NCBI RefSeq assembly: GCF_021484805.1
Contig: NZ_CP090557.1
Location: 4,476,001-4,540,000, forward strand
Direction: 5' to 3'
Origin: Tellurirhabdus bombi
GTDB lineage: Bacteria > Bacteroidota > Bacteroidia > Cytophagales > Spirosomataceae
DNA length: 64,000 nucleotides
This document shows positions 30,757 through 54,502 of this stretch, one piece after another (position 1 is the first letter of the stretch; every line of letters starts with the position of its first letter). A model generated the notes under the pieces. That model searched no databases, was not told where the DNA came from, and saw only the letters and a program-made list of their open reading frames with translations. The position numbers and the translations under genes were made by a program.

Positions 30757-31917
30757 ATGAATGCGGCAACCACCAATCCATTAGTGTCAAAATTACCCTG
30801 GGTAGGCACCACCATTTTTACGGTTATGTCTAAACTAGCCACCGAAACCAACGCCATCAACCTTTCTCAGGGTTTCCCCGGCTTTGACTGTTCGCCTGAT
30901 TTGACTGCTTTGGTCGAAAAATACCTGCGCAAAGGTTTCAACCAATACGCGCCGATGACGGGTGTGGCGGCGTTGCGCGAAGCCTTGGCCCAAAAGACCG
31001 AAGAACTATACGGACTTATTTACCATCCTGAAACAGAAGTAACCGTCACATCGGGTGCGACGGAAGCCTTGTTTGCCGCCATTTCTACCGTAGTCCGACC
31101 CGGAGACGAGGTTATCGTTTTTGAACCAGCTTATGATAGTTATGTACCCGCCATTGCCTTGAATGGAGGCGTGCCGGTTTACGTTACCCTAACGCCTCCC
31201 ACCTATGCCATTGACTGGTTGGCGGTTCAGCAGAAAATAACGGACAAAACCCGGCTGATCATTATCAATACGCCGCACAATCCAACCGGCTACGTCTGGA
31301 CAGCCCACGATATTGCTCAACTGGCCGCGCTGGTGAAAGATCGGGATATCTGGGTGGTCAGCGATGAGGTTTACGAACACATTCTGTTTGATGGGCGAGC
31401 GCACCAATCGCTGCCCATGCATCCGGTTTTGCGGGAGCGCACGTTTGTTTGCGGCTCATTCGGAAAAACGTTTCATGTTACGGGCTGGAAGGTTGGGTAT
31501 TGCCTGGCGCCAAAAGACTTATCCGCCGAGTTTCGAAAAATCCACCAGTATCTGACGTTCAGTACCGTAACACCGATTCAACATGCGCTGGCCGATTATC
31601 TGCGTTCTCCAGAGCATTATCTGAGCTTACCTAACTTTTACGAACGCAAACGCGACCTGTTCCTTGAGAGCATCCGTAGCTCCCGGTTTCAATTCCAGCC
31701 AACCGAGGGAAGCTTTTTTCAGACAGTAGATTACCAGACAATCACCGATGAACCAGATCATGAATTGGCTATTCGTCTGACCCGCGAAATTGGCGTGGCA
31801 TCCATTCCCGTATCGGTATTTTACCAGCAGAAAAACGACTACAAAAGGCTGCGATTCTGCTTTGCCAAAGACGATGAAACCCTCCTGAGGGCGGGCGAAC
31901 GGCTTTGCCAGTTATAA
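30757..31917 (+). CDS. PLP-dependent methionine/kynurenine-type aminotransferase (class I)
   Basis: A 386-residue fold-type I aminotransferase. The Schiff-base lysine is Lys237 in SFGKTFHVTGWK; NTPHNPTG (about 171-178), the SDEVYEH segment and the final RLRFCFAKDD arginine that binds the substrate carboxylate are all present. The sequence pattern, including FNQYAPMTG, is that of YbdL-type methionine aminotransferases and glutamine transaminase K, which act in methionine salvage or aromatic amino-acid exchange. It is monocistronic. Confidence 0.88.
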   Translation: MNAATTNPLVSKLPWVGTTIFTVMSKLATETNAINLSQGFPGFDCSPDLTALVEKYLRKGFNQYAPMTGVAALREALAQKTEELYGLIYHPETEVTVTSGATEALFAAISTVVRPGDEVIVFEPAYDSYVPAIALNGGVPVYVTLTPPTYAIDWLAVQQKITDKTRLIIINTPHNPTGYVWTAHDIAQLAALVKDRDIWVVSDEVYEHILFDGRAHQSLPMHPVLRERTFVCGSFGKTFHVTGWKVGYCLAPKDLSAEFRKIHQYLTFSTVTPIQHALADYLRSPEHYLSLPNFYERKRDLFLESIRSSRFQFQPTEGSFFQTVDYQTITDEPDHELAIRLTREIGVASIPVSVFYQQKNDYKRLRFCFAKDDETLLRAGERLCQL

Positions 31918-32074
31918 CTTTAAAAAGTCGGGGCAGCGCTAAAATCCTAACCTGGTTTCAGCCTTTATTGGTAGAAGCGAGATCGTCGGTTTGCTGACTT
32001 ATTTCCCGCGCTTTAGCAGACTCAATAAAAACACAGTCAATGGCTGTATAGGTCAATTCAACAAAAAATAAGCT

Positions 32075-33373
32075 CTAATTCCTCTCTATTGATTTTATAA
32101 TCCACTGCCCGACTTTCAGGCCTTGCTGCTGGCCATTCGTGATAGCGTCCATGAAGTGAATACCGCCGTAAAAGCGCGAAATACCGGCCTCGTCCGACGC
32201 CTGGTGAAACGACTTGAACGAGCGTGCGGGCAAGCCAAACCGCTCTTCAACGGTGTCGGTATACTGAAAATTCTCCCCAAAATAATGAGTTAAAATCACG
32301 GCTGATGTCGCCGAAATAGTAGAGTGTCCGCTCAAATATTCCGGGAAGGGGGGCGTTTGCAAAAAAGGCTTCCAGCTTGCATCCACGTACTTGCGAATGG
32401 CCGTTTCCGGGCGGATGCGGTTGCTGCGGTATTTTTCGTCCCAGCAGCAGATGAACCCATCCATGAGTCCGATAGCTACCACGGTATGAATTTTCAGCGC
32501 TTTGGCAAAATTCAGGTTTGCTTTTTCGCACGCAATACTGGTAATACCCAGCCAATGCGCACCCGGCGAAATCTTTTTCATACCTACCATCAAATGCCCG
32601 TTATCTTCCAGCGCAAACGGGTTACAGTCCCAGAAAGCGGCAACCTGCTTGTTTTCAGTAGATAATTCGGCCTTATAGTTTTGCTGTAGTAATTGATAGA
32701 AAGCCGATTTTTTATCGGTTGAAAAAGCAACGGGTGGTGCTGGTTTAAATTGGGCACACGAATCCAGGGTGAACGACCGAATAGTGTTGAAATACGGTTC
32801 AACTGGCGCAAAGAAGCCCGGCGGCGTTGGGTACCAGCTACCCTCCTGCTCCGACGGCGTATAACGCGGATAATTGCTAATCTGGTTGTATTTATCCGCT
32901 TTGGCATACCCTAAAATCTGCTTACTTACCTGATTGGCATAGTGTTGCGAACTTTCAATGGCTTCCTCCGCAAATCCCAACTGACGGCATTTTTCCAGCA
33001 ACTGCTTTTCGTGTGTTTCCAGGCGTTTGCCAGAAGGCTGCATTTTTTTAGCAACGGCCAGCATGGCCAGCAGCGAACTCAGCTGGTAAGAATAGCCCGA
33101 ATAATGCGCTTTGTCAATTACTGGAAAATCGTTTAGCGCCCCTTTCATGCTCCGGCAGGTGCTATCGTGTTGTGCCGTAATTTCGTAACCAGCTAACAAA
33201 GCATAGGAAAAAAAACGCGCTGCCAGCGGCGGATTGGTTACATCATGCACCATAACATCCGTCATCTGATCCAGGATCTTGGTCATTTCCTGCCGGTCCA
33301 TTTCGGGCTGCTTTTCCCCTGATTTACCACAGCCTCCGATTAGCAATAAAAGTAGGATTGCGACTCGTTTCAT
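32075..33373 (-). CDS. Vanadium-dependent haloperoxidase-like lipoprotein (PAP2 superfamily)
   Basis: A 432-residue lipoprotein (Cys15 in GGC). The vanadate or phosphate pocket of the haloperoxidase/PAP2 fold is complete: Lys314 and Arg321 seven residues apart (EKYRSNRIRPETAI), Ser348 and His350 in SGHS, and Arg400 and His406 in SRFYGGIHF. Bacteroidota members may be halide peroxidases or acid phosphatases; the sequence does not decide. Its start overlaps the stop of the upstream VCBS gene by one base (TAATG), so translation is coupled. It is the last gene of the susC transcript. Confidence 0.85.
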   Translation of the reverse strand: MKRVAILLLLLIGGCGKSGEKQPEMDRQEMTKILDQMTDVMVHDVTNPPLAARFFSYALLAGYEITAQHDSTCRSMKGALNDFPVIDKAHYSGYSYQLSSLLAMLAVAKKMQPSGKRLETHEKQLLEKCRQLGFAEEAIESSQHYANQVSKQILGYAKADKYNQISNYPRYTPSEQEGSWYPTPPGFFAPVEPYFNTIRSFTLDSCAQFKPAPPVAFSTDKKSAFYQLLQQNYKAELSTENKQVAAFWDCNPFALEDNGHLMVGMKKISPGAHWLGITSIACEKANLNFAKALKIHTVVAIGLMDGFICCWDEKYRSNRIRPETAIRKYVDASWKPFLQTPPFPEYLSGHSTISATSAVILTHYFGENFQYTDTVEERFGLPARSFKSFHQASDEAGISRFYGGIHFMDAITNGQQQGLKVGQWIIKSIERN

Positions 33374-36300
33374 TATTTTTTCACTTGGTAAGCCCGCACG
33401 GCTCCCTGATTAATACCGAAAAGCAACGTATTTCCAACGGGCAAAATACTTCGCACATCGCCCGTTAGTTGAAAGCCCGATTGTTGCTGCGGAACTGGAA
33501 CAAAACCGCCCTTACCATTACCCTTAAGAAGCACCCCAAAGTTGGCGTCGTACTTTCCGAACCGCAAACGGCCCCGATTGACATTCCCGCAAACCAGCAG
33601 GTCTTTTTTTCCATCCTGATCATAGTCCAGGCTCGACAGCGCGTAGACAGGAGCTACCTGAACCTCGGTCGGCAAGGTTTTTTCGTCAAAGCGCCCGTTG
33701 TTGTTCTGTTCAAAATAAGCCGTTTTCAGGTAATTGGCCTCTAAACGAGCCGCTCCCTCCAACTCTTCGGCGGAAAAAATCTCCTTTAGCGTCGCATCGG
33801 CGTAGCTTTTGTAATCGGGGAAACGAGTCCGCATGATACTCATCTGGTCCAATAATTCATCCCGCGTGACATACGGATACGATTTGCCCTGCATGTAAAA
33901 ACAGAAAATAGGATCAACCGAACCGTTATCGTCGAAGTCTTTGTAATACATTTCGGCGGGTTCTTTATCGCTGGCTTTGCACTGCGTATTCAGGCCCAAA
34001 TTCCCAATCACCAAGTCCGGTTTGCCATCTCCATTGAAATCATCAACCAGCAACTTATTCCACCAACCCCGGTATTCTTTGGCAAAATAATCAGTGGTTT
34101 TGTTGGCCCATTTACCGTTTGTATTTGCCCATACGGTTACGGGCATCCACTCGCCTACTACCACCAACTCAGGTTTTTTATCCCCGTTCAGATCCACCCA
34201 AGCGGCATCGCTCACCATACCCATCCGCTGTAGTTCCGGCGCCAGATTCGCAATCTGGTCTTTAAAAACTCCTTTTCCGTCGTTAACAAGTAGAAAACTT
34301 GGTGGCGTTTCGGGGTATCTTCCGGGCACAACGCGACCCCCAACGAATAAGTCAGGCCGGCCATCGCCATTCACATCCGCCACCCGCACGCAACTTTTAC
34401 TCACCCGCATTGGTGGCAACGCATCAACTTTTTTGGTGAACGACCCCTTGCCGTCATTGATGTATAAGCGATCCTGCAAGCGCACATCGTCGGGTAAAAA
34501 ATTTCCGTAACCGCCGCTGCAAACATACAGATCAGCCGCGCCATCGCCATTGGCATCAAAGAATACAGCGTCGGTATCTTCACTTTCTTTATCGCGTTCG
34601 AAATCAGGCTGAGTTCGAGCCATGAAGTTTCCTTCTTTTTGCTGCACGTAAATCATCCCCGCTTTGCCGCTGCCTCCGCCCACATACACGTCTTCCAGCC
34701 CATCCCCGTTCACATCAGCCTTGACCAGACAAGGGCCTGAAAACGAAAGCGGATTGATCATCAACGGCTGCCGTTTAAAGTCGTTGGTCGTTGTTTTAAG
34801 ACTTTGAAAGATAATCGGCGAGGCCACCTCCCGGAAAAGGGGAGCAACTTCTTTAGGATTTCGGTAAGCGTCGGTAGCCAGTTTTTCCTGCACAATAAGC
34901 AATTGATTGGCTTTTACGCCCCGCAAAACCTGCTGTTTTCCGCTTGGCCAGACAACCCGTAGCGAGTCGATGGTGACCTTTTTCCCCAAGCCAAAATGCA
35001 AAATGGGCGAAACGCTGGACTGGTAACCCCGGGTAGGCATCTGCTCCAGATACTGCGGTTTCCCTTTGCTGTAGAGCGTCACTTTGGCACCTACACCCTG
35101 CGTATTTTGTCCAAGCCCTTCAAGTTTTACCTTCAAATAGTCGTTTTTCAGGGCTTTATCGGCTTCGTTTTGGTAAATAAAAGCGGGTTTATTGATGTTG
35201 TTGACTATCAAATCCAAATCACCGTCGTTGTCCAGATCGGCGTAGGCCGCGCCGTTGCTGTTCGCCGCCTGCGCCACGCCCCAACTCTTACTGACGTTAC
35301 TAAATACCGCATTTCCACCGGACTGCCCGCCGTTGTTTTTAAACACGTAATTGCTGACATCGGACGACGGAATTTTGTAAACCATTTCCAGCAAATCCTG
35401 CCGCATCACCTGCCGATTTTGCAGAAAATCGCCCATGTATTTGATAAAATCCATGTTGGTATAATCCCGCAAAAAGCCATTGGTCACAAATAGGTCTTTC
35501 CAGCCATCGTTGTCATAATCGGCAAAAAGAGGCGCCCAGCTCCAGTCCGTGTTGGAAATGCCCGCCAGTTGGCCTACCTCGCTAAAGTTTGGCTCGCCCT
35601 GAGCATTGTTGCCCGCATTTAATTGCAGCATGTTCCGCATGTACTGGTGGTGAAATCCGGACTTGATGTTCAAATCAAACTTTTCGTAGTTATCCGGCGC
35701 AAAAAGAAGCTTTTGCCGCCGGTTGTCTTCCGGCAGCATGTCTAGCGTGAAAATATCCGGCAACGCATCGTTGTTGACATCGGCCACTTCGGTTCCCATC
35801 GAAAAGTGCGAGGTATGGCCCAAACTGGTTTTCAACCGATCCGAAAAAGTGCCGTTCTTCCGGTTGATGTATAGGTAATCGGGAACAGCATAGTCGTTTG
35901 CCACGTAGATATCCGGCCAGCCATCGCCATTGATGTCGGCAATGCCAGCGCCCAGCCCGTAGGTCAACGCGGAACTGCTCAGGCCCGCTTTCTGGGTAAC
36001 ATCCCGAAAAAACATCGCCCCGTTTGGCTCTTTGTCATTCCGAAACAGCCGCACGCCACTCTCGGCATCTTCTTTTTTTAACAAATCGGCGGTGCTGGCC
36101 TCATCCAGAATTGGTAAGGATTTCGGATTATGGTTCAGTAGAAACATATCCAGATCACCGTCCTTATCGTAATCAAAAAAGGTGGCCTGGGTGCTATTGG
36201 CCGGACTTGCCAGACCGTATTTTTTCGCTTGCTCACTGAAATGGGGAATGCCTTTGGCGTCCGCTCCTTCGTTGATGAAGAGCTGGTTTTCCCGCTTTTC

Positions 36301-36774
36301 CGGGGTTAATTTACCTGAATAACAGATATATATATCAAGCCTTCCGTCGCCGTTTACATCTGCCATCGTGACGCCGGTTTTCCAGGGGCCTTCCCGTCCC
36401 GCTACGCCAGCCGCGTCGGTAATATCGGCAAACTGCATGCGCGTGGCGGCGTTGGCCCCTTTGTTGAGGTACAGTTTATTCGCGGTCATGTTGCCGGTGA
36501 AATAGAGGTCGTCGAAGCCATCGCCATTGACATCACCAACGGCTACACCGCCGCCATTGTAAAAGTACTGGTAGATTAAAACGTTGGTATTCAGCCCTTC
36601 TGTTAATGTATTCTGGAAATCTACCCCTGTTTTCTCTGCGGGCAATGCCGTAAATAAAGGGGCTTCCTGTTCAGGAATAGACTCTTCTGTTGATGATGAA
36701 TTTTGGCAACCCGTTTCGGTTAAAATCAGTAGTGAGAGTACTAAGGGAAGAATAGTGGGCAATGGCCATTTCAT
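33373..36774 (-). CDS. Large surface lipoprotein with FG-GAP/VCBS repeats and UnbV/ASPIC domain (CRTAC1-like)
   Basis: A 1133-residue lipoprotein (Cys23 in TGC). It carries at least fourteen calcium-loop repeats of the DxNGDGxxD type, for example DVNGDGFDDLYF, DYDKDGDLDMFL and DLDNDGDLDLIV in the first half, and DVNGDGLEDVYV to DYDQDGKKDLLV in the second. They should form two integrin-like beta-propellers. Between them (about 545-635) lies an ASPIC/UnbV segment (VGAKVTLYSKGKPQYLEQ, then HFGLGK and LRVVWPSGK). The ATG at 36774 precedes the lipoprotein signal directly; 14 extra upstream residues are rejected. Role unknown, probably binding or display at the cell surface. Confidence 0.88.
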   Translation of the reverse strand: MKWPLPTILPLVLSLLILTETGCQNSSSTEESIPEQEAPLFTALPAEKTGVDFQNTLTEGLNTNVLIYQYFYNGGGVAVGDVNGDGFDDLYFTGNMTANKLYLNKGANAATRMQFADITDAAGVAGREGPWKTGVTMADVNGDGRLDIYICYSGKLTPEKRENQLFINEGADAKGIPHFSEQAKKYGLASPANSTQATFFDYDKDGDLDMFLLNHNPKSLPILDEASTADLLKKEDAESGVRLFRNDKEPNGAMFFRDVTQKAGLSSSALTYGLGAGIADINGDGWPDIYVANDYAVPDYLYINRKNGTFSDRLKTSLGHTSHFSMGTEVADVNNDALPDIFTLDMLPEDNRRQKLLFAPDNYEKFDLNIKSGFHHQYMRNMLQLNAGNNAQGEPNFSEVGQLAGISNTDWSWAPLFADYDNDGWKDLFVTNGFLRDYTNMDFIKYMGDFLQNRQVMRQDLLEMVYKIPSSDVSNYVFKNNGGQSGGNAVFSNVSKSWGVAQAANSNGAAYADLDNDGDLDLIVNNINKPAFIYQNEADKALKNDYLKVKLEGLGQNTQGVGAKVTLYSKGKPQYLEQMPTRGYQSSVSPILHFGLGKKVTIDSLRVVWPSGKQQVLRGVKANQLLIVQEKLATDAYRNPKEVAPLFREVASPIIFQSLKTTTNDFKRQPLMINPLSFSGPCLVKADVNGDGLEDVYVGGGSGKAGMIYVQQKEGNFMARTQPDFERDKESEDTDAVFFDANGDGAADLYVCSGGYGNFLPDDVRLQDRLYINDGKGSFTKKVDALPPMRVSKSCVRVADVNGDGRPDLFVGGRVVPGRYPETPPSFLLVNDGKGVFKDQIANLAPELQRMGMVSDAAWVDLNGDKKPELVVVGEWMPVTVWANTNGKWANKTTDYFAKEYRGWWNKLLVDDFNGDGKPDLVIGNLGLNTQCKASDKEPAEMYYKDFDDNGSVDPIFCFYMQGKSYPYVTRDELLDQMSIMRTRFPDYKSYADATLKEIFSAEELEGAARLEANYLKTAYFEQNNNGRFDEKTLPTEVQVAPVYALSSLDYDQDGKKDLLVCGNVNRGRLRFGKYDANFGVLLKGNGKGGFVPVPQQQSGFQLTGDVRSILPVGNTLLFGINQGAVRAYQVKK

Positions 36775-36812
36775 AGAACGGAAACTAACAAGTTTATGGA
36801 GGTACAAGTTAC

Positions 36813-37514
36813 TCAAGTTAAATCAGCACAAAAAAGAAGCAATTTTTTCAAATCTTCTTCTTTTTTGAAATCAGGATTCTGCGCTTTTAAATAGGCTTCC
36901 AACTCTGATTTATACTTGGCATAGATCTTTAAAAGACTGGCCTTGGTGAATTTATAGAAGCGATTGTTTTGATCAATCAGTAGGTAGATAACGTCTTTCT
37001 CCAGAAGCAAATCGCCGGGCTGTTCCAGTCGGGCAAGCTGTCCGTTGCTCCCTGCAAATGATTTATATTGAGTAATGGATGAGGTGCCCGATGATTGTCC
37101 ATAGCCCCCATTCTTTTCGCCGCGTACGGTTTTAAAAACAGGTTTTACCCCCATTTTTACGGTCTTATGCGCCGCAATAATCTCTACATAGCCATTTTTG
37201 GAATCGTAGGCAAAGGCATTTTCTCCTACCTGGATTTCCTTGATGGCCTGCTCATTGGCCAGGGATAGGGTATCTCCCCTGGCGTCAATAAATTGCATTT
37301 CACCCAATAGAATATTGAAGTTGAGGCGCCCGGTTGCTGGTTCTCCTTTTAGGTACGTTATTTTTCCCGGTAGAAATTGGCGATAGCGATACCGTTCTTC
37401 CAGGGGAATTGATTTTTGCCAGTTTTGTCCGCCTTTAACCCGAATGATCTGCTGCGCCCACAAATTAGCCGCACTCATTAATCCAATGCCGATGGTCAAC
37501 AAAATCGCTTTCAT
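36813..37514 (-). CDS. Secreted protein of unknown function in the susC operon
   Basis: A 233-residue protein with a signal peptide (cleaved near residue 20, LWAQ). No family recognised. It is rich in beta strands in the first half (RQFLPGKITYLKGEPATG) and ends in a helical, lysine-rich tail with KYKSELEAYLKAQNPDFKKE. The ATG at 37514 is chosen over a GTG at 37541 because it begins the signal peptide. It lies 38 bp before the VCBS gene and directly after the hairpin that follows susD. Confidence 0.65.
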   Translation of the reverse strand: MKAILLTIGIGLMSAANLWAQQIIRVKGGQNWQKSIPLEERYRYRQFLPGKITYLKGEPATGRLNFNILLGEMQFIDARGDTLSLANEQAIKEIQVGENAFAYDSKNGYVEIIAAHKTVKMGVKPVFKTVRGEKNGGYGQSSGTSSITQYKSFAGSNGQLARLEQPGDLLLEKDVIYLLIDQNNRFYKFTKASLLKIYAKYKSELEAYLKAQNPDFKKEEDLKKLLLFCADLT

Positions 37515-37523
37515 CGCTATTAA

Positions 37524-37559
37524 AAACCTATGCCAGCTCACAGTGAACTGGCATAGGTT
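37524..37559 (-). terminator. Hairpin with T run directly after susD (attenuating terminator)
   Basis: Arms 37525-37536 and 37548-37559 are perfect 12-bp complements; on the minus strand the stem is followed by TTTTT. It sits between susD and the next operon gene, so it may let only part of the transcripts continue. Confidence 0.7.
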
Positions 37560-37586
37560 ATTTAGTCTATTTACTTATGACAAATT

Positions 37587-39449
37587 CTAATAACCTGGGT
37601 TTTGTATCAGCTTATTATTTCGGTTCATCTCATCGCGGTGAATCGGCAGGTAATATAACTTATCTGCCCAAGAGCGGTTTTCTTTACCCGGATCGATCTC
37701 GACAACTTTGTACGTATAATCATAGCTGGTCGGATCATATTTGTAGAGTGATACCGTTTTACCCGCCTTTAGCATCCCTGTAATGCTGATGGTATTGGCT
37801 TTGCGACCCAGCGTAGTAGGAGCAATCATCCAGCGACGGGCATCGTGATAGCGATGCTCTTCAAAGACCAGCTCAATCCGGCGCTCATTCCGGTACCGAT
37901 CCCGCAATGCAGTACCAGTTTCAGTAATGGCCGGCATACCGGCCCGGAAGCGGATACGGTTTAGCCACAGTTTTGCTTCAGCATCCTGACCCAGTTCGAT
38001 ACAAGCTTCTACGTAGTTCAGCGCGGCTTCCGTGTAGCGGAAGAACGGCCAAGGAATTTGCTGGTAGGTGTTCTGATCAACAATAGCTGGGTTCGGATCG
38101 GTGAACTTGCGTTGGTAATATCCTGTGTAGCTACCGTTCCAGTCTTCCACTGAACTCTTACGAGTATCCAGACCGGCAATCATCGTTTTGGCACCGGATG
38201 CGTTCACCACTTCGTACGTTCCCGTCTGAATCTGGTTAACTGGATCTTTAGCCGCAACGTCTGCCGTCCGGGGTTTCCAGGTAGCACCATCGTATAGAAT
38301 CGTAGCGTATAGACGAGGGTCGCGGTTAGCATACGGCGTGGCGGCTTTGGCCGGGTCACTCCAGCTGAACTTGCTACCGTCCATCATTTCGAAGTCATCC
38401 ACCAGCAGCGAAACCGGCGTATTACCCGCCCAGTTGTGGTAGCCGTTGGGGCCGTTGTGCAAGCCTACCTGACCGCCCGCTTCCTGCTTTTCATTGATGA
38501 ACGAACGAGACAAAAGCACATCCCGATCACCACCGTTGCGCGACAGAGCGATATTCATGTAGTTGGCGGTTCCATCTTCTTTCGAAGCCGGGGCCGTCAT
38601 GTTCAACATAAATCCGTAGCTGGTTTGATCGAGAACAGCTTTAGCAGCGGCTTGTGCTTTGGTCCAGCGTTCAGTCCGGGTGCCTGTTGTGTAACCAAGC
38701 AGCGCCGAGTTGGTATACGCAGCATGAACGGTCGACTTTGATTTTGCCGTAGCCACGTCATAAAGATCACTGGCCGCATACGTTAAAATACGGGCTTTCA
38801 GTGCTAGCGCCGATACTTCGTTAGCCCGGCCTTTCGCCATTGACATGCCTTTCAGCAGAGTTGCAGCTTCCTCGCAGTCTTTCACAATGAAGTTGATACA
38901 TTCTTCCATCGTGTTCCGAGTGACCAAGTAATCTGCTTCACCCAGTTCGTAGGGCCGGTCGATGAGGGGAACCCCACCGTAATACCGTACCAACTGATGG
39001 TAATAGTAGGCGCGTAGGAACCTGGCTTCGCCCCGCAACCGCTCAACAATTTTGTTGGTATTGGCAAACTTTGGCTCCGCCAAGTTGGCAAGAGCTAGGT
39101 TGGCCGCCCGGATACGCAGGTACATATTGTTCCATTCGCGCGTTTCGTTGATCGAACCTGGATCAGCTGGGTTTGATCGACCCTCGGTGATGGTAGTAAT
39201 ATTCCGACCAGGGTGCGTAAAAATCGCTTCGTCGGTGAATGACGAAAGTTGCTCTTCGTAAAGTCCGCCCTGCCCTAGGCCGGCGTAAATTCCGGTGACA
39301 AAGGCTTCGGCCAAAGCCGCATCTGACCAGACAGCCGAACCGGCAACTTGATCAAGTGGCTGGGTATTCACAAAATCGTCGTTACAACCTGTTACGGAAA
39401 AGGCGGCAATACCAACGGCTAATGTTATGGTTTTAAATTTTCGTAGCAT
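37587..39449 (-). CDS. SusD/RagB-family nutrient-binding outer-membrane lipoprotein
   Basis: A 620-residue lipoprotein (Cys22 in TGC) that forms the lid of the SusC transporter. The opening DDFVNTQPLDQV, the early helical TPR-like repeats with LRGEARFLRAYYYHQLVRYYGGVPL, and the C-terminal NERRIELVFEEHRYHDARRW segment are hallmarks of the SusD-like family. The ATG at 39449 is 13 bp after the susC stop; an upstream start inside susC is rejected because the lipoprotein signal begins here. The ligand cannot be read from the sequence. Confidence 0.93.
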   Translation of the reverse strand: MLRKFKTITLAVGIAAFSVTGCNDDFVNTQPLDQVAGSAVWSDAALAEAFVTGIYAGLGQGGLYEEQLSSFTDEAIFTHPGRNITTITEGRSNPADPGSINETREWNNMYLRIRAANLALANLAEPKFANTNKIVERLRGEARFLRAYYYHQLVRYYGGVPLIDRPYELGEADYLVTRNTMEECINFIVKDCEEAATLLKGMSMAKGRANEVSALALKARILTYAASDLYDVATAKSKSTVHAAYTNSALLGYTTGTRTERWTKAQAAAKAVLDQTSYGFMLNMTAPASKEDGTANYMNIALSRNGGDRDVLLSRSFINEKQEAGGQVGLHNGPNGYHNWAGNTPVSLLVDDFEMMDGSKFSWSDPAKAATPYANRDPRLYATILYDGATWKPRTADVAAKDPVNQIQTGTYEVVNASGAKTMIAGLDTRKSSVEDWNGSYTGYYQRKFTDPNPAIVDQNTYQQIPWPFFRYTEAALNYVEACIELGQDAEAKLWLNRIRFRAGMPAITETGTALRDRYRNERRIELVFEEHRYHDARRWMIAPTTLGRKANTISITGMLKAGKTVSLYKYDPTSYDYTYKVVEIDPGKENRSWADKLYYLPIHRDEMNRNNKLIQNPGY

Positions 39450-39462
39450 ATCGAATAAAAAA

Positions 39463-42400
39463 TTAAAAACGAATCGACGCACCAAAGTTGATTACTCGTG
39501 CCTGTGGATAGTATTGGCCTGTTGCATTGTCCGCTTCCGGGTCAAATGAGCCCAACTTGTTAAAGAGGGTTGCCAAGTTTAATCCATTAGCATATAGACG
39601 GAAACTGCTCATACCCACTTTTTTTCCAAACTTCTCTGGAATGGTATAGCCAATTTCGAGGTTTTTCAGACGGATGTAATCTGCTGAACGCAGCCAGTAG
39701 GTATTGTTGTTGGAATAATACTGGTCGCTCCGGTTGGCAATCCGTGGGTGAACGCTGCTCGGGTTTTCAACAGTCCAGCGGTCTGTGTAGATTTCCTTCA
39801 GGAAGTTACCGATGTTTCCAGACTCACCCAAGCTGATGTACTGCTGCGCACCTGCCGACCCTTGGAACAGGATGGTCAAGTCAAAGTTTTTGTAAGCAGC
39901 CGTGATGTTCATCCCACCTTGGAAAAGTGGCAAGTTTGTCCGTTTGTTACGAATCCGGTCATCCGGCGTAATTTTACCGTCAGGCTGGTTGACGAAGTTT
40001 CCGTTGGCATCACGACCCCCAATATCCTTGTACTTCATGTCGCCAGGGCGCAGGGTTTTAACGATGGCCGAATAATCAAGCCCGTTAGCGTCGATATCAG
40101 CCTGATCTTTAAAAACACCATCATACTGATAAGCCAGGTACGAGTTGATTGGCATACCCGTCGTCCGTTGCCAGTCAGGAGCGCCCGGCGCCTCGTCCCA
40201 GAAAAGGATTTTGTTTTGTGCATAACCACCGTTTATGCTAACCGTAAATTTCAGATCTCTTGCCTGACCGTTGTAGCCAATCTGACCATCGAAACCGCTG
40301 TTCCGTACCTTTCCGATATTTTCTGGAGGCAGGACCAGACCCGTGGTGCGGGGAATGGATGCGTTACGCGGGTAAAGGATTGACGTCCGCAGGTTGTTGA
40401 AGTAGTCAAATTCAAAATTGATCTTACCGTTGAACAACTGACCTTCCAAACCGATATCAGCATTGTTGGCTACTTCCCAAGTAATCGATGGGTTTGGAAT
40501 CCGGGCCTCCGTCAGCGTCTTCTGCTGCTGGTTGTTGATGATGTAGGTGTTGAAGCCGTAAGTTGCCAGGTACTGGTAGGTAGCTAGGTTAGTTGTGTTA
40601 GGCAAGTAAATCTGGTCATTACCTAACTGGCCCCACGAACCGCGCAATTTCAGGTAGTTGATGGCCGGAATAGAGTTTTTCAGGAAGCTTTCTTCCGAAA
40701 TAACCCAGCCTGCCAGGAAGCCTGGGAAGAAACCGTAGCGAGTAGCTTGCGGGAAGATGTCAGAGCCATCGTAACGCCAGAGGAATTCCGCCAAGTATTT
40801 CTCCTTGTAGTTGTAGGCTACCCGACCAAAATAGTTGATCCGGGCGCGTTCGTAAGCGCTACCATTGTTGTTTTTCTCCAGGTCACCACCGGCAAAAAGC
40901 TGGTCAATGGCCGGAGAAATGAAGAACCGGCGGTAAGCATCAAATCCTTCACCAGTGATGGTTTCACGGTTAACCCCGGCCAGCACAGTCAAACCATGAT
41001 CTGCACCGAATTTCCGTTCGTAGTTGACAATACCGCCTAACAGGATGTTCAACTGGTTTTCGCTGTAGAGGTTCAACCGGGGTTCAGCCGGTCCGCGCTT
41101 GCTAGCAATCAGGTTTGGATTACCATTCGCATCAACGCCCGTACCACGTTCGTACAACGTCCAGGGCGTCTGCCACAACCGACGGCTGCGTAACCGCTTG
41201 TCAATAGCCGCGGTACCCGAAAATTTCAGTCCTTCAATGCCGGGGATTTTGATGTCCAACTGGCCGTTCGTCTGGAAATAATCCTGCTTGTCTTTGTCGT
41301 AGCCCGTATCATTGGTAGTAATTACGACGGGGTTTTCACCATTTTCGATGTCAGGACCCGGACGACCATCGGGCCAGAAAGCCGGTTGGTTTGGCTTACC
41401 ACGCATCTGCATCCGGAAGATGGCACCAGCACCGCGCGTTGGATAGAACCGGAATTCTTCACGGCCCAGCAAACCAACGGCTAAGTGGATGTATTTGTTG
41501 ATGTTAGCGTCCAGGTTCACGCGCAGGTCATACTGTTTGTAACCCGTTGCTGATCTTTTGTAGTAGGCATCCTGGTCTTGGTAACCCAGCGAAGCCAAGT
41601 ATTTGACATCTTCCGTACCACCCGTAATTTGCAGGTTGTGCTGCTGCTGCGGAGACCAAGTTTTCAGCGTAGATTTATACCAGTCGGTATTTGGGTGACC
41701 CCAAGGATCTGAACCATCGTTGTACTTAGTAATATCGTCTGGTGAGTAAGGTGCCTTCCGAACCGTTCCGTCCGGGCGAGTGTAAGAACCTGTGGCTGTG
41801 TAAGCTTGCGTAGCCGCGCCCCATTCTGCCACTGGTAGTTCATAAACGTTCAGGTCATTCAGCATTTTAGCGTACTCAGCCGCGTTAGCCAGTTTTGGCA
41901 CAATCGTCGGCTGCGAAAAACCCTGGTTGAATGAGTACGACAATTGCGGTTTACCAGTCTTACCCCGCTTGGTAGTGATTAGAATAACCCCGTTGGCAGC
42001 CCGTGAACCATAGATAGCGGCTGAGGCATCTTTCAAGACCGAAATGTTTTCAATATCATTTGGGTTGATCCGCTCCAGACCTCCTGAACGAGCCGGAACA
42101 CCGTCGACAACGATTAAGGCACTGTTGTTACCTAGCGTGTTTGTTCCACGAATCCGAATAGTCGAACCGTCATAACCCGGCTCCCCACTGCGGTTTACAG
42201 CCACAACGCCCGGTAGCCGACCCGCAATGGAATTTGACAGGTTAGTCGTTGGCGACTTCACCAGATCGCTTCCTTTTACCGAAACAACCGATCCTGTTAC
42301 CGTTTCTTTCTTCTGCGTACCGTAACCAACAACAACAACTTCACTCAGGGTCTTATTGTCAACCCCCATTTTTATGTTGATTGTAGTTCGGCTCCCAACC

Positions 42401-42717
42401 GTAACTTCTTGGTTAACATACCCAATAAAAGAGAAAATAAGTACACTGTTTTGATTGGGAACATTAACTGAATACACACCATCTGCATTGGAGGTAGTAC
42501 CCTGTGTGGTGCCTTTTACCACAATACTTACCCCCGGTAACGTCTCTCCCTGCTCGCTAGTAATAGTACCGCTAACCCTTACCTGAGCAAAAATACTTAA
42601 CGACATAAATTGCAGCAGCAAAAATAAACTGCCTATTTTTTTCCACTGGGATACGTCCTTTGTGGGCAATTTGCCCCCGGGAGATCCGCCTACCTGTCTG
42701 GTAAACTTTGTCATCAT
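39463..42717 (-). CDS. SusC/RagA-family TonB-linked outer-membrane transporter
   Basis: A 1084-residue protein. A long, basic N-region (about 30 residues) precedes the signal-peptide core and cleavage near residue 45 (IFAQV). A carboxypeptidase-regulatory-like domain follows (about 47-120), then the LSEVVVVGYGTQKK start of the plug, the SVLKDASAAIYGSRAANGVI signature of SusC plugs, and a 22-strand barrel ending in an aromatic residue (INFGASIRF). It imports an unknown ligand powered by TonB. There is no N-terminal STN domain, so it is not itself a sigma-signalling transducer. Confidence 0.94.
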   Translation of the reverse strand: MMTKFTRQVGGSPGGKLPTKDVSQWKKIGSLFLLLQFMSLSIFAQVRVSGTITSEQGETLPGVSIVVKGTTQGTTSNADGVYSVNVPNQNSVLIFSFIGYVNQEVTVGSRTTINIKMGVDNKTLSEVVVVGYGTQKKETVTGSVVSVKGSDLVKSPTTNLSNSIAGRLPGVVAVNRSGEPGYDGSTIRIRGTNTLGNNSALIVVDGVPARSGGLERINPNDIENISVLKDASAAIYGSRAANGVILITTKRGKTGKPQLSYSFNQGFSQPTIVPKLANAAEYAKMLNDLNVYELPVAEWGAATQAYTATGSYTRPDGTVRKAPYSPDDITKYNDGSDPWGHPNTDWYKSTLKTWSPQQQHNLQITGGTEDVKYLASLGYQDQDAYYKRSATGYKQYDLRVNLDANINKYIHLAVGLLGREEFRFYPTRGAGAIFRMQMRGKPNQPAFWPDGRPGPDIENGENPVVITTNDTGYDKDKQDYFQTNGQLDIKIPGIEGLKFSGTAAIDKRLRSRRLWQTPWTLYERGTGVDANGNPNLIASKRGPAEPRLNLYSENQLNILLGGIVNYERKFGADHGLTVLAGVNRETITGEGFDAYRRFFISPAIDQLFAGGDLEKNNNGSAYERARINYFGRVAYNYKEKYLAEFLWRYDGSDIFPQATRYGFFPGFLAGWVISEESFLKNSIPAINYLKLRGSWGQLGNDQIYLPNTTNLATYQYLATYGFNTYIINNQQQKTLTEARIPNPSITWEVANNADIGLEGQLFNGKINFEFDYFNNLRTSILYPRNASIPRTTGLVLPPENIGKVRNSGFDGQIGYNGQARDLKFTVSINGGYAQNKILFWDEAPGAPDWQRTTGMPINSYLAYQYDGVFKDQADIDANGLDYSAIVKTLRPGDMKYKDIGGRDANGNFVNQPDGKITPDDRIRNKRTNLPLFQGGMNITAAYKNFDLTILFQGSAGAQQYISLGESGNIGNFLKEIYTDRWTVENPSSVHPRIANRSDQYYSNNNTYWLRSADYIRLKNLEIGYTIPEKFGKKVGMSSFRLYANGLNLATLFNKLGSFDPEADNATGQYYPQARVINFGASIRF

Positions 42718-42755
42718 GAGTTAGGGAATGTTAGGTTTTCTTTAATTGACAATGA

Positions 42756-42784
42756 CAAATATAGTAATTGTACAGCACCGCAAG
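42756..42784 (-). promoter_or_regulatory. Candidate susC promoter
   Basis: On the minus strand TATATTTG (42756-42763) matches the -7 consensus exactly; CTTG (42781-42784) lies 17 bp upstream, shorter than the usual 19-21 bp. The region upstream (42785-42910) is extremely AT-rich. Confidence 0.45.
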
Positions 42785-42910
42785 CCTTTAATGACAAAAA
42801 TATATAAACAAATAGATGATATATATAACTATAGTAACTAGATAGAAAATGGACTATTTTTAAATTTTATTAATAACCATCCAGTATACACTATAAAAAA
42901 AATACAATAA

Positions 42911-42944
42911 CAAAAACCCCGCTCGAGCTAATTCGAGCGGGGTT
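42911..42944 (-). terminator. Terminator of the sigma/anti-sigma-barrel operon
   Basis: 12-bp perfect stem (42915-42926 with 42933-42944) followed on the minus strand by TTTTTG. It separates this operon from susC. Confidence 0.85.
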
Positions 42945-42996
42945 CGTATTATTACCTATAAAATTTTGTATTGGCCTTGCTTTAATCAATCGTTAC

Positions 42997-44487
42997 TTAG
43001 AATTGGTACAATACGCGCATGCGCGCACCAATCGAATTGCTTTTCATCCCATTTGGGTCTGTCTGCCACGCTCTTGAAATATATGGGCTTCCCTGCACGG
43101 CCCAATGATCCCACTGCTTTTCAACGGCTAAGGCCAAAAACCAACCGCTGTGCAATTCAGGCGGACAAACGCGCTTGAGGTCAACCGGCAGAAAACCACG
43201 CGGGTCGCGGGGATCACGCCGATACATAAAATCAACCTGCTCTTTCACCTGTAGGCCAATATTAGCCCCAACAGTGGGCACAATCGCCAGTTGATCTGTA
43301 ACCGCAATCCGATAGCCTAGACTAACTGGCAGTTGCCATATCTTGTTGCTGCGCTCAATATTTAGAATTTCGTGCTGTGGTCCGAGGCCGTTGGCATATT
43401 TTTTACGGAAATTGAGGCGGGTCTTTTCATCAAACTGATTATCAGTCATAAATTGCTCTTCTGACTTGGTTTGCCGGTTCAAGCCAACGCCTAAGGTCAG
43501 ATGATTGCCAATAATGGCTTCGCCGTATAGCCCCAAGCCCCATTGCTGTAAACCCAACTCTCCCCCAGCTCCTAAACGAAAACGGATGAGCGGCTGCGGC
43601 TCCTCGATTGCCGGAGCCAACCCGGACAGAGCAACCGCCGTTTTAGGCATTAGCGATGCTACCCGGATGCGTCGCACACGACGTTCAAACTGCTCGGTAA
43701 AGTAAGCCGAATCCAGTCGCATTGCGGCACGGGGCGCGAGGGTGTTCAACTGAAAATTTTTCTGGGTGGCTGCCCAACGATCATTAGATCCTCCATTGCC
43801 AGAGGTACTTTCTATCTTGGTCGGCAATTCTGTACGTCCTGCCTGGCCTCCAGCCAACTGATCCGGTCCCTTCAGATTTATTTTTGCCTGATGATCAGCC
43901 GATTCTGAGACTTTCTGATCTTTACTAAAAGCAGTTTCCCGCATCTTGGATCGATCTGCCCATTGACCTGCTGGCTTTATTTCTAACTCGTTTTTAGTAG
44001 TCGTAGCGTTTATTTCATAGCCGTTTTCGGTCGTAGGCTTCTTAATTGGGCTTCTATTTTCTTTATTTTCAGATGCAGCAAGCCGCTCTTGCGGTTGAGC
44101 AGAAGAGCCATTGGCAGCCGATATAGCTTCTTTTTGAGTACTTTTCTCGGCTATGTATTGAGTAATATAAACTGTATCGACGCGGCTGGCAACCTGGTCG
44201 GTCGTTTGTTGCAATTGAGTTACCTTCTGACTAAGCGTCTGCACTTTTTGCTGCAACTCCTGGTTGGAACCATGCTGCCAGAAAACGGTTGCTACCAGCG
44301 CCATCATGGTCATCACCCCGGCGGTAGGCACTAGCCAACGGCTAATGGACGTTCCGCTGGGCATTCCTCCCCCGCCCGCATGTTGCTGCATGTATTTTTC
44401 CATCCGAGCCCAATCCTGATCGCGGTAGGTCGGCTGTAGACTTTCCAGCTTCCGGCGAATCGAGTCAGAAAATTTATCAGTTTTCAT
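42997..44487 (-). CDS. Anti-sigma-like membrane protein fused to an outer-membrane barrel domain
   Basis: A 496-residue protein with four parts. Residues 1-48 are a short cytosolic segment (RKLESLQPTYRDQDWARMEKY) common at the start of Bacteroidota sigma partners. A single membrane helix lies at about 51-70. A coiled coil follows (about 75-101, QELQQKVQTLSQKVTQLQQ), then about 170 polar, low-complexity residues. The last 200 residues (from about 295) show amphipathic strands of a PorT-like barrel ending in RVLYQF. Its start overlaps the sigma gene by 11 bp. It may bind the sigma factor and span the envelope; this is inferred from order and layout. Confidence 0.72.
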   Translation of the reverse strand: MKTDKFSDSIRRKLESLQPTYRDQDWARMEKYMQQHAGGGGMPSGTSISRWLVPTAGVMTMMALVATVFWQHGSNQELQQKVQTLSQKVTQLQQTTDQVASRVDTVYITQYIAEKSTQKEAISAANGSSAQPQERLAASENKENRSPIKKPTTENGYEINATTTKNELEIKPAGQWADRSKMRETAFSKDQKVSESADHQAKINLKGPDQLAGGQAGRTELPTKIESTSGNGGSNDRWAATQKNFQLNTLAPRAAMRLDSAYFTEQFERRVRRIRVASLMPKTAVALSGLAPAIEEPQPLIRFRLGAGGELGLQQWGLGLYGEAIIGNHLTLGVGLNRQTKSEEQFMTDNQFDEKTRLNFRKKYANGLGPQHEILNIERSNKIWQLPVSLGYRIAVTDQLAIVPTVGANIGLQVKEQVDFMYRRDPRDPRGFLPVDLKRVCPPELHSGWFLALAVEKQWDHWAVQGSPYISRAWQTDPNGMKSNSIGARMRVLYQF

Positions 44488-45085
44488 AATATCGTATCGG
44501 AATCGAAGGATCAGTTGAAAAAAAATGAGGGTAAGCTACGCGAATGGCCTGCTGCAAACGCAACCGCGACCGGTAAAAATGAGAACGTACGGTTACTTCA
44601 TTCATTTCCATCATTTCTGCTACTTCGTGTAACGTATAGCCATCTACAACGTGCAGTGAGAAAACCGCACGTTGAACAGGAGGTAATTTTTGTACCAAAT
44701 CCAGAATTTCTTCGGCAGTTAGTCGCTCTATAACGTCATCATTAAATGGAATAGTCATATTTGGATCCAGCCCCGCCTCTGTATCCAGCTTATGATATTT
44801 CCGATAATAACTTAGGGCGGTATTGATGAGAATACTACGCAGCCAGGCACGGAACGGATGCACACCATCGTATTGATCCAGGCGCTGAAACACTTTCAGG
44901 AAGCTTTCACTGAGCACATCTTCGGCTTCCTCGGTTGAAGATGTATACCGCAGGCAAATACTCTTGGCATACCCAAAAAACTGCTTAAACAGCACCTGCT
45001 GAGCACGGGTATTGCCAAGACGGCAGGCAGCTATGACACTTCCCAGGTCACGCTCGTCAAACGAGGATTGTTTTCGGAATAACAA
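44477..45085 (-). CDS. ECF-type RNA polymerase sigma factor
   Basis: A 202-residue sigma-70 family protein with region 2 (about 28-95: FGYAKSICLRYTSSTEEAEDVLSESFLKVF) and region 4 (about 128-182: LPPVQRAVFSLHVVDGYTLHEVAEMM, then VRSHFYRSRLRLQ) and no region 1 or 3, as in ECF factors. The start is TTG at 45085: the upstream in-frame stop is only five codons away and no ATG exists before region 2. It is translationally coupled to the anti-sigma/barrel gene and diverges from the Rieske gene. Confidence 0.92.
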   Translation of the reverse strand: MLFRKQSSFDERDLGSVIAACRLGNTRAQQVLFKQFFGYAKSICLRYTSSTEEAEDVLSESFLKVFQRLDQYDGVHPFRAWLRSILINTALSYYRKYHKLDTEAGLDPNMTIPFNDDVIERLTAEEILDLVQKLPPVQRAVFSLHVVDGYTLHEVAEMMEMNEVTVRSHFYRSRLRLQQAIRVAYPHFFSTDPSIPIRYYEN

Positions 45086-45269: not shown

Positions 45270-45677
45270 ATGAATCGTCTTGAGTTTTTAAAATCCATGG
45301 GTCTGACTGGTGCTGCCCTGTTAGCTGCCCTGACTTCCTGCCAACCGGATAGCGAGGCCGTTCTGCCCCTCGGCCCAGTAGACTTTGATCTTGATTTGAC
45401 CGACCCGGCCTACTTTGCCTTGCACCAAGCGGGCGGCTATGTTATCCAGTACGGCGTTGTGGTGGCTCGCACCGTGCAGGAAACCTTTGTAGCTGTCACC
45501 CAGACTTGTAGCCACAAGGGCCAACAGCAGGTCGTTTTTAAAAATGATGAATTCTATTGTACCGCCCACGGTGCCCGCTATGACACCACCGGAAAGGGTC
45601 TGAACACGAATGGCAAGCGAGGACTCACCACCTACCGAACCGAGCAGTCGGGGTCTATTTTACGCGTATACGCTTAA
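45270..45677 (+). CDS. Rieske [2Fe-2S] lipoprotein
   Basis: A 135-residue protein with a lipoprotein signal (Cys24 in TSC). The cluster ligands are Cys80 and His82 (CSHKG) and Cys97 and His100 (CTAHG). The extra disulfide cysteines of cytochrome-bc1 Rieske proteins are absent (Gln and Ala at those places), which points to a ferredoxin-type or soluble redox carrier rather than a bc1 subunit. No oxygenase partner is encoded nearby. It is followed 27 bp later by the PepSY-like lipoprotein, probably co-transcribed. Confidence 0.88.
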   Translation: MNRLEFLKSMGLTGAALLAALTSCQPDSEAVLPLGPVDFDLDLTDPAYFALHQAGGYVIQYGVVVARTVQETFVAVTQTCSHKGQQQVVFKNDEFYCTAHGARYDTTGKGLNTNGKRGLTTYRTEQSGSILRVYA

Positions 45678-47626: not shown

Positions 47627-47857
47627 ACAGCTCCGGTCGATGGACGTGGTTAATAGCTTAGGTACTAATTCTTTTGAAAACCTGCGGAGTTCTGTTAACT
47701 ATTTTTCATTTTCGGCTCTCACACTCAGGGATTCCCACAAATATACCTGGCTCGTTCATAAAAGTTAGCGAGTACAGGAGAGTACATGAAAGGAAGCCTT
47801 GGTTAGTCATCCATTTTTACATTGAAAACGTTATATCTCCCTTTTCCTGAAAACCAT

Positions 47858-49246
47858 ATGCCAGTTATTTCTCCAAAGTATCGGTTCGGTCAAGCCGCCC
47901 CCATCCTGTTGTTAGGTGCTTTTTTGCTAAGCCAATCGGCGAATGCCCAGCAGCCAGCGCCCAAAGCCAACGACTCGACCACGCCGCTTCATCTCCTGAA
48001 GCCCGACTATAAAATTCCGTACGGGCAACCCTCTGTAAAAGACGTCACCGCCGTTCTGGACCGCGTGCATCGCTACCTAGACGCAGCTACTCCCGCCCAA
48101 CTGGTTGACCGTCAAACGTCTCAACCCATTACTGATTTATCGAAATTTAATTCCAATGCCGTTTTTAAACAAGGGGATTTTCGGTTAATTAGCTATGAAT
48201 GGGGGGTTACTTACGCAGGTATGCTGCTGGCTTCCGAAGCTACCGGCGATCCGCGTTACGCCGCCTATACCAATCAGCGCCTGGCTTTTATTTCCAGCCT
48301 GGTGCCTTATTTCCAGAAGCAGGTTGAGGCCAATCCGCAAGCCAACACCCCGCTTCGGTCAGTGCTGGCTCCCCATGCGCTGGATGATGCGGGTGCCATG
48401 TGTGCGGCCATGATTAAAGCTTCCCGCGCGGGCGGCATCAAAGCCAATCTGCGCCCTTCCATCGACAATTACATTAATTATATTCTGAACAAAGAGTATC
48501 GGCTGTCCGACGGTACGCTGGCCCGCAACCGACCGCAACCCAACACGCTTTGGCTGGACGATTTGTTTATGAGCATTCCGGCGCTGGCGCAGATGGGCAA
48601 ACTAACCGGCGAAGCACGCTATTACGACGAAGCGGTGCGCCAGATTCAGCAGTTTTCGGCCCGCATGTTCAACAAGGAAAAAGGGCTCTACATGCACGGT
48701 TGGGTGGAAGGTATGCAGGTGCATCCGGAATTTCGCTGGGCACGCGCCAATGGCTGGGCCTTGCTCACCAAGGTTGAATTGCTGGATGTATTGCCCGAAA
48801 ATCACCCCGGTCGTCCGGCCATTCTTCAACTCCTGCGCGACCACGTACGCGGCTTAACGGCCTACCAGTCGGGAGAGGGTTTCTGGCACCAGCTCATCGA
48901 CCGCTCCGATTCTTACCTGGAAACCTCAGCCACCGCCATTTATGCTTATGCGATGGCCCGGGCCATCAACAAAGGCTGGATTGACGGACTGGCCTACGCC
49001 CCGGCCACGCTGCTGGCCTGGAACGCCGTTTCGACCAAAGTGACGGCTGGCGGTCAAGTGGAAGGCGTTTGCGTGGGTACCGGCATGGGCTTTGATCCGG
49101 CGTTCTATTACTACCGCCCCATCAATGTGTACGCGGCGCATGGGTACGGTCCGGTGTTATTAGCGGGCGCAGAAGTCATTAACTTGCTGAAAAATAAGGC
49201 ATTCGAAATCAACGACAGCTCGCTTCAACTGACGCAGAAGAAATAA
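47858..49246 (+). CDS. Secreted GH105 unsaturated rhamnogalacturonyl hydrolase
   Basis: A 462-residue (alpha/alpha)6-barrel enzyme with a signal peptide (cleaved near residue 32, NAQQ). It should remove the unsaturated galacturonyl residue left at the end of rhamnogalacturonan-I fragments by lyases. The motif LWLDDLFMSIP supplies Asp234, matching the catalytic Asp of YteR-type enzymes; the ISYEWGVTYAGML and EGFWHQLIDRSDSYLETSATA segments are also family-typical. The ATG at 47858 is preferred to a TTG at 47822. Its neighbours are two acetylesterases for the same polymer. Confidence 0.9.
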   Translation: MPVISPKYRFGQAAPILLLGAFLLSQSANAQQPAPKANDSTTPLHLLKPDYKIPYGQPSVKDVTAVLDRVHRYLDAATPAQLVDRQTSQPITDLSKFNSNAVFKQGDFRLISYEWGVTYAGMLLASEATGDPRYAAYTNQRLAFISSLVPYFQKQVEANPQANTPLRSVLAPHALDDAGAMCAAMIKASRAGGIKANLRPSIDNYINYILNKEYRLSDGTLARNRPQPNTLWLDDLFMSIPALAQMGKLTGEARYYDEAVRQIQQFSARMFNKEKGLYMHGWVEGMQVHPEFRWARANGWALLTKVELLDVLPENHPGRPAILQLLRDHVRGLTAYQSGEGFWHQLIDRSDSYLETSATAIYAYAMARAINKGWIDGLAYAPATLLAWNAVSTKVTAGGQVEGVCVGTGMGFDPAFYYYRPINVYAAHGYGPVLLAGAEVINLLKNKAFEINDSSLQLTQKK

Positions 49247-49251
49247 CGAAA

Positions 49252-49413
49252 GAGTGAATGAGCGATTGAGCGAATAACTAGTCGACCTGTAATGTACTGA
49301 TCTAAGCTCATTCTGTCTGATCACTTAAGTAACGGTGCAAAATTCAGTTCCTAGGATCAACACGTTGAGAATTGGCCAGCTATTCGCTCATTCACTCATT
49401 CTATCATTCGCTC
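49252..49413. repeat. Inverted pair of degenerate octamer repeats
   Basis: Left: three 8-mers of type GAGYGAWT (49252-49259, 49260-49267, 49268-49275). Right: four tandem 8-mers of type ATTCRCTC (49382-49413; the third is ATTCTATC). The two sets are reverse complements, separated by about 106 bp between the GH105 and acetylesterase genes. Confidence 0.8.
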
Positions 49414-49428
49414 ATTAACCTAAACAGC

Positions 49429-50763: not shown

Positions 50764-50799
50764 GCCTTATTTTTACTGTAATCAAGATTTGTATTTGCC

Positions 50800-51588: not shown

Positions 51589-51603
51589 CGCTCAAAATTG
51601 TCC

Positions 51604-52695: not shown

Positions 52696-52697
52696 AA

Positions 52698-52736: not shown

Positions 52737-52742
52737 CTTGAG

Positions 52743-54437: not shown

Positions 54438-54502
54438 TGGGGCTAAGCGTTAAAGGAATTTAGATACAGAGATAACACAAATTCCTTTATCCCGCTAGCA
54501 AA

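Follow-up and report, generated by a model that had tools for sequence, protein, structure and literature searches.

The conserved unit of the locus described here is a pair of neighbouring genes, one encoding a VCBS/UnbV lipoprotein and the other a lipoprotein of the vanadium-haloperoxidase family; the pair is old and widespread and is often, but not always, attached to a SusCD uptake system. The locus lies in a stretch of 64 000 nucleotides of Tellurirhabdus bombi (contig NZ_CP090557.1, positions 4,476,001 to 4,540,000; hereafter the window) and consists of five minus-strand genes in the order susC, susD, a gene for a secreted protein of 233 residues, the VCBS/UnbV gene and the peroxidase gene. 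With slightly better than even confidence, we read the pair as a halide-oxidising outer-membrane unit that has been added to SusCD uptake, its chemistry, substrate and location being what we infer from the data presented below.

A first-pass annotation, made from the letters alone, had described the five genes as running in one direction and as combining SusCD with an enzyme of the vanadium-haloperoxidase type. Domain scans agree with the placement of the genes; family, pocket and fold agree with the combination. The TAATG junction and the six pocket residues that it named are present, and the sizes that it gave for the secreted protein and for the 1133-residue calcium-repeat protein hold from ATGs 37514 and 36774, respectively. 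The possibility, raised there, that the arrangement occurs in this strain only was followed up in relatives, in which the arrangement is widespread. The exact five-gene order fared less well: it is confined to Larkinella among the loci searched and is not the conserved unit, since the gene for the 233-residue protein has only four orthologues, all Larkinella (L008, L009, L010 and L019). The locus of Larkinella sp. C7 (L012) has no such orthologue, and the gene is single copy in its own genome.

Conservation of the VCBS–peroxidase pair

The neighbourhoods of peroxidase homologues were compared in three collections. The nearest set comprised the best 80 of 228 relatives in named genomes, which are close kin by selection and span Larkinella, Dyadobacter, Siphonobacter, Emticicia, Pontibacter, Rufibacter, Adhaeribacter, Echinicola, Pedobacter, Mucilaginibacter, Segetibacter and Saprospiraceae, among others; VCBS, SusC, SusD and peroxidase labels were given by profiles built from nearest-set loci and the T. 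bombi genome. A VCBS gene was found directly upstream on the same strand in all 79 testable loci (at the remaining one, L011, the contig ends), and the gap between the two genes was 50 nucleotides or less in 68 of them. In 55 of the 79 loci SusD was one of the two genes that come next upstream; in 20 it was absent from the next three genes, and in the other four the VCBS gene is at the edge. Besides the peroxidase under study, the genome of T. bombi itself (4.94 Mb) encodes three homologues, of which two are close paralogues (43% and 41% identity) and one is distant (29%). Both close paralogues come after VCBS genes with SusD upstream, and four of the five UnbV proteins of this genome reside in these two loci and the one under study. 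The fifth is encoded beside a divergent SusCD, and the 19 kb examined there contain no peroxidase.

The second collection was a sample of 99 genomes from across the phylum, that of T. bombi among them. The enzyme was found in 15 of these at E 1e-30 or better; 41 of the 99 encode UnbV proteins, and every one of the 15 is among them. Among the 24 matches are 18 close homologues: a VCBS gene is directly upstream of 8, two or three genes upstream of 3 and a convergent neighbour of 1. If the three from T. bombi are left out, 9 of 15 close homologues have a VCBS gene near. The density of UnbV proteins is about one per megabase (66 matches in roughly 61 Mb of 15 genomes), and fewer than one neighbour is estimated to arise by chance.

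The third collection came from the family that holds genome G053, which was taken as Flavobacteriaceae because a protein from one of its genomes shares 99% identity with the 4CIT chain, i.e. the vanadium-dependent iodoperoxidase ZgVIPO1 of Zobellia galactanivorans. A homologue at E 1e-60 or better is present in 114 of its 249 genomes, and 18 of the 30 best loci have a VCBS gene directly upstream. The locus of the 99% identical protein (L162) has three VCBS genes directly upstream; thus, the enzyme of the crystal structure adjoins the same partner, if genome G179 is Zobellia as the identity suggests. The two loci differ in that the window has a single VCBS copy and SusCD directly upstream, whereas in the Zobellia-like locus susD and susC come some 10 kb past the third VCBS gene. 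Among hand-picked Flavobacteriaceae loci (39 rows, 38 distinct, since L165 = L183), the VCBS gene is directly upstream in 26 rows, directly downstream in 3 and absent in 10. In three loci of this type (L170, L171 and L189) the order is reversed, the peroxidase gene preceding the VCBS gene on the same strand. A strictly obligate pair was ruled out beyond the nearest clade by unpaired homologues.

Two modules in trees and distances

The enzyme tree contained 83 sequences (67 with and 16 without a VCBS neighbour) and took every third of the 80 nearest loci; L011 was scored as having none although its contig ends. VCBS neighbours appear in most branches, and therefore an old pairing with scattered loss fits; the number of label changes was 12 against 14.9 for shuffled labels, and many supports are low. 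In a tree of 122 VCBS proteins, copies adjacent to the enzyme cluster (12 changes versus 41 for shuffled labels, none of 500 shuffles being as low), and so do the second copies of tandem arrays (6 changes versus 20.6). Unpaired VCBS proteins are interspersed in this tree, and the family as a whole thus extends beyond the pair.

Co-variation of protein distances was analysed for the 54 loci that have all four proteins. Partial correlations were high within two pairs, SusC–SusD (0.899) and VCBS–peroxidase (0.815), and ranged from −0.13 to 0.20 across them. In a set of 16 non-redundant loci from the nearest clade the values were 0.869 for SusC–SusD and 0.473 for VCBS–peroxidase (5–95% of subsamples, 0.28–0.61).

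The peroxidase

The peroxidase gene (32075-33373, minus strand) encodes a lipoprotein of 432 residues. Its assignment to the ZgVIPO1 family is well supported: the best solved relative is 4CIT/4USZ (386.8 bits, E = 1.2e-114, residues 11–429; 43% identity to the 4CIT chain), and the next solved relatives, other vanadium haloperoxidases, reach only E = 0.027. The AlphaFold2 model (mean predicted local distance difference test score, pLDDT, 80.5) has the helical-bundle fold of haloperoxidases and superposes on 4cit with Z = 49.2 (2.2 Å over 381 residues); fungal and Streptomyces-type chloroperoxidases and their homologues come next in the fold ranking with Z = 26–28. The vanadate pocket is complete, with Lys314, Arg321, Ser348, His350, Arg400 and His406 all aligned with the 4CIT chain. 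All six residues are present in 168 of 169 aligned homologues, and Trp311 is conserved in 168 of 169. On these grounds it is likely that the enzyme binds vanadate and oxidises halides.

The only Pfam match of the protein is the PAP2 superfamily (PF01569); no phage family matched in PHROGs. PAP2 phosphatases carry the motif SRX5HX3D, in which an Asp stands four places after the His. The corresponding part of the T. bombi protein reads SRFYGGIHFMDA, with Ala in place of the Asp; of 163 close homologues, 154 share this Ala four places after His406 and 2 have Asp.

According to PMC13198595, the residues that set halide choice are largely unknown and the Zobellia enzyme is placed in a group of its own; PMC12871659 shows that a Rhodopirellula enzyme near iodoperoxidase-like sequences chlorinates and brominates. 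Therefore, halide preference is not readable from the sequence.

The sole exception among the 169 homologues, which lacks one pocket residue, is a protein of locus L119 (6774-8111), two genes from a second homologue of 517 residues. The distant 29% homologue of T. bombi (L007, 8140-9690; G000:C1, about 2.67 Mb) has 516 residues; its gene stands between a TonB-receptor-like gene and one for a secreted protein of 306 residues. A relative of this secreted protein is encoded in L119, next to the 517-residue homologue.

The VCBS/UnbV partner

The partner gene (33373-36816, minus strand) stops where the peroxidase gene starts, the two codons overlapping as TAATG. Its product is a lipoprotein with FG-GAP repeats followed by a UnbV_ASPIC domain (PF13517 and PF07593), the composition of CRTAC1-like proteins. 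It contains 12 DxDxDG-type motifs, compared with a mean of 0.23 and a maximum of 5 in 1000 shuffles. Among PDB entries, murine CRTAC1 is closest to it in sequence (E = 1e-21) and, in structure 9etn, matches residues 36–632 of the AlphaFold2 model (pLDDT 78.2) with Z = 35.0 (2.8 Å over 474 residues). The T. bombi protein differs from CRTAC1 in being a bacterial lipoprotein beside a peroxidase and in a second propeller-like half with inserted helices. This half (model residues 643–1133) matches many propellers with Z = 24–30; the score of aldos-2-ulose dehydratase (Z = 27.9, 9% identity) falls within that range.

SusCD and the probable ends of the transcription unit

The susC gene (39463-42717, minus strand) encodes a TonB-linked outer-membrane transporter (TIGR04056, 908.9 bits; Plug and CarbopepD_reg_2 domains). 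The adjacent susD (37587-39485, minus strand; PF07980, E = 3.6e-54) encodes a lipoprotein that probably starts at ATG 39449 and has CNDDF after the signal. These RagA/SusC and SusD/RagB family members form the uptake pair known from polysaccharide utilisation loci. A further likeness to such loci is that genes of one cluster precede SusC in 11 related loci; the single member scanned is FecR. Unlike them, the operon in the window ends in a peroxidase and has no glycosidase; no carbohydrate-active enzyme was found among the five genes by the Pfam domain scan. The gene for the 233-residue protein (36813-37541, minus strand) is accessory, and its product matched nothing in Pfam, NCBIfam or PHROGs.

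Between susC and the gene upstream of it lies a hairpin that resembles an intrinsic terminator (42914-42945, minus strand; 13 pairs, 8 of them G-C, and a T-run), which probably marks the start of the transcription unit. The terminator consensus scan gave 18 sites versus 14.9 in shuffles, and this one has the most pairs. The Bacteroidota promoter form, which we take to be TTTG-N17-21-TANNTTTG, is absent before susC and matches once in the window (1.51 matches expected). Rfam returned nothing at gathering thresholds across 31900-43100. At the other end, the gene beyond the peroxidase is convergent.

A hairpin after susD

A second hairpin (37525-37559, minus strand), a stem of 16 pairs followed by a short T-run, occupies the interval between susD and the next gene and ends 10 nucleotides before ATG 37514. 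RNAfold gives −27 kcal/mol for 37515-37586 (z = −7.15); the terminator consensus scan did not list the hairpin. Two detectors were run on the related loci. The first found hairpins after SusD in 48 of 59 loci, after SusC in 0 of 54, and between VCBS and peroxidase in 8 of 82. The tail rule was then loosened for the second detector, which scanned 220 nucleotides after each stop codon and found hairpins after SusD in 57 of 59 loci, compared with 2 of 53 after SusC, 2 of 79 after VCBS and 17 of 82 after the peroxidase; the background was 3 of 295 in shuffles of 20-nucleotide blocks, which do not preserve dinucleotides. Stem sequences vary among many genera while pairing is kept, and some have a common CTATGCC core. 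A dispersed repeat as the source of the hairpin was ruled out, since the stem pattern is found at one place in the genome. The idea that the hairpin is special to this locus holds only in part: 10 of 20 SusD genes taken from the T. bombi genome, this one included, have one (the sample covers 20 of 31 matches, and several stop codons were guessed). With half of these genes carrying a hairpin, it is better seen as a habit of SusD genes than as a private feature.

We read the hairpin as an attenuator, because there is no room for a promoter between it and the ATG in the window; this suggests that the operon may be attenuated after susD. The hairpin divides the DNA of the locus at the same point as the distance correlations, i.e. 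between SusCD and the VCBS–peroxidase pair.

Glycosidases and the nature of the ligand

The absence of a glycosidase, from which the first-pass annotation had argued that the ligand may not be a glycan, is confirmed for the locus. The argument itself is weak, since at least 18 of 138 related loci have glycosidases within the gene run and a pectin-type gene set is close by in the window (see below); a glycan ligand is thus still possible. The glycosidases of the related loci are of the glycoside hydrolase (GH) types GH9, GH5, GH26, GH65, GH116/MGH1-like, GH37 trehalase, GH51 with two GH43, GH2 and GH18; these counts stem from scans of cluster representatives, extended to cluster members, and have no background rate. 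In L112, L125 and L206 (the last judged by eye), GH65-type and trehalase genes accompany SusD–VCBS arrays, some with a peroxidase and some lacking one, a hint that certain VCBS–SusCD modules serve alpha-glucosides such as trehalose. Four Emticicia loci have a gene for a glucose-methanol-choline (GMC) oxidoreductase after the peroxidase. It is a possible source of hydrogen peroxide, its likeness to pyranose oxidase being weak and far below curated cut-offs.

Weighing of the proposed unit and its alternatives

A number of observations weigh against a halide-oxidising unit added to SusCD uptake. The pairing has gaps: 6 of the 18 close homologues in the phylum sample are without a VCBS gene nearby, the 6 remoter matches have none in the DNA examined, and 12 of the 30 best Flavobacteriaceae loci lack one directly upstream. 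VCBS proteins, for their part, also occur with SusCD but without a peroxidase. The importer is not obligatory, because 20 of the 75 nearest-set loci that could be read have no SusD among the three genes that follow upstream of the pair. Separation of the two modules is incomplete as well, in that peroxidase and SusC keep a partial correlation of 0.28 in the 16-locus set (subsamples 0.07–0.46), where the control was SusC/SusD and not the species tree. The hairpin of the window itself escaped the first detector. In the fold comparison, algal bromoperoxidases (Z = 14–16) score no better than acid phosphatases (Z = 13.6–15.6), so that the fold alone leaves the chemistry unset.

The cell location belongs among these points. 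Acidic residues just after the lipid-bearing Cys are a sign of surface export. By a crude regular expression, which found a lipobox in 47 of 63 SusD, 98 of 161 VCBS proteins and 83 of 165 peroxidases, the mean excess of acidic over basic residues is 1.83 for SusD, −0.13 for VCBS and −0.52 for the peroxidase. By this rule SusD carries the sign, and the two lipoproteins of the pair on average lack the acidic signal; a surface machine, as proposed in the first-pass annotation, is thus no more than a possibility, and the enzyme could face the outside or the periplasm.

Among the alternatives, we give most weight to a protective role, though we still think it rather unlikely. The pair would consume hydrogen peroxide during the oxidative burst of a plant or alga, with cycling iodide or bromide as the catalyst, and SusCD would import an ordinary glycan that is not itself oxidised. 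The glycosidases of related loci fit such a role, as does the possible peroxide source in Emticicia, and PMC9296495 reports that one Zobellia iodoperoxidase, vIPO3, reached higher levels with a brown alga than with alginate, which its authors discuss in the context of coping with algal defence. However, most gene runs of the nearest set, for example in Dyadobacter and Larkinella, end at the peroxidase without a glycosidase, and a general shield leaves the co-variation with one particular propeller protein unexplained. Uptake of iodine appears improbable. Here, the peroxidase would make hypoiodous acid, which the cell would capture with the help of the calcium-binding propeller protein and import, as in the calcium- and peroxide-dependent iodine accumulation by Arenibacter C-21; uptake by that strain depends on glucose, oxygen and calcium, is proposed to involve a glucose oxidase together with a haloperoxidase, and occurs in the presence of at least five ZgVIPO homologues (PMC5064120). 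The 12 DxDxDG-type motifs of the VCBS protein agree with this scheme and, as a speculation by analogy, a calcium-binding partner would fit the calcium need of C-21. Against it, many members of the nearest set are apparently soil or freshwater bacteria, judging by their names, and iodide is scarce in soil and freshwater.

Least probable of all, and in our opinion very much so, is a PAP2-type phosphatase that strips phosphate from a captured phosphorylated ligand. Its case draws on the sole Pfam match, on the core fold common to acid phosphatases of the PhoN/PhoC type at the scores given above, and on the title of entry 3bb0, in which a vanadate-free fungal chloroperoxidase is trapped as a phosphate intermediate. 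The iodoperoxidase chains are nevertheless nearest in both sequence and fold by a wide margin, and the Asp of the phosphatase motif is replaced by Ala in nearly all close homologues.

Proposed mechanism and significance

In the halide-oxidising unit that we favour, the SusC–SusD importer of the outer membrane would be the first module. The second would consist of the ZgVIPO1-family peroxidase and the CRTAC1-like double-propeller lipoprotein, made together and probably in contact at the outer membrane. With vanadate most likely bound, the peroxidase would convert a halide (iodide or bromide) into the hypohalous acid, hydrogen peroxide being the oxidant; the propeller protein would hold it by the SusCD machine or bring a ligand there, and the ligand or its surroundings would be oxidised during uptake. 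The hairpin after susD would keep expression of the second module below that of SusCD.

A wider proposal, which we consider possible rather than probable, is that peroxidases of the ZgVIPO family work as half of a two-protein machine dedicated to oxidation, with the CRTAC1-like double-propeller lipoprotein as the usual and ancestral partner, and that Bacteroidota have repeatedly plugged this unit into SusCD importers, bringing hypohalous-acid chemistry to TonB-dependent uptake on land and in the sea. No description of the pairing was found among the open-access papers that the searches listed, a scope outside which subscription papers fall, including the 2014 description of the Zobellia enzyme. 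No open-access papers were found that join haloperoxidase with UnbV, VCBS, SusD or FG-GAP, or UnbV with SusD. To our knowledge, a structure is available for the bacterial iodoperoxidase family while its biological role is not settled; a conserved partner gene and a frequent importer offer direct handles on that role. The question is not marginal, since nearly half of the genomes in the family of the Zobellia-like genome carry a homologue. Should the unit oxidise the cargo of SusCD, oxidative chemistry would join hydrolysis in the uptake loci of Bacteroidota; should it shield against peroxide, nutrient capture would be linked to surviving host defence. Either outcome would help to show which organisms produce reactive iodine and bromine on land and at sea.

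Neighbouring genes in the window

A gene set of the pectin/rhamnose type, as its predicted functions suggest, begins about 5 kb from the locus (47822-62095). It includes a GH88-family hydrolase (47822-49246, plus strand), two GDSL esterases and, farther on, an FGGY kinase and a xylose-isomerase-like protein that adjoins LUD-domain and cysteine-rich-domain proteins. A small Rieske [2Fe-2S] protein is encoded at 45270-45677, upstream of and divergent from a gene for an extracytoplasmic function (ECF) sigma factor (44477-45085).

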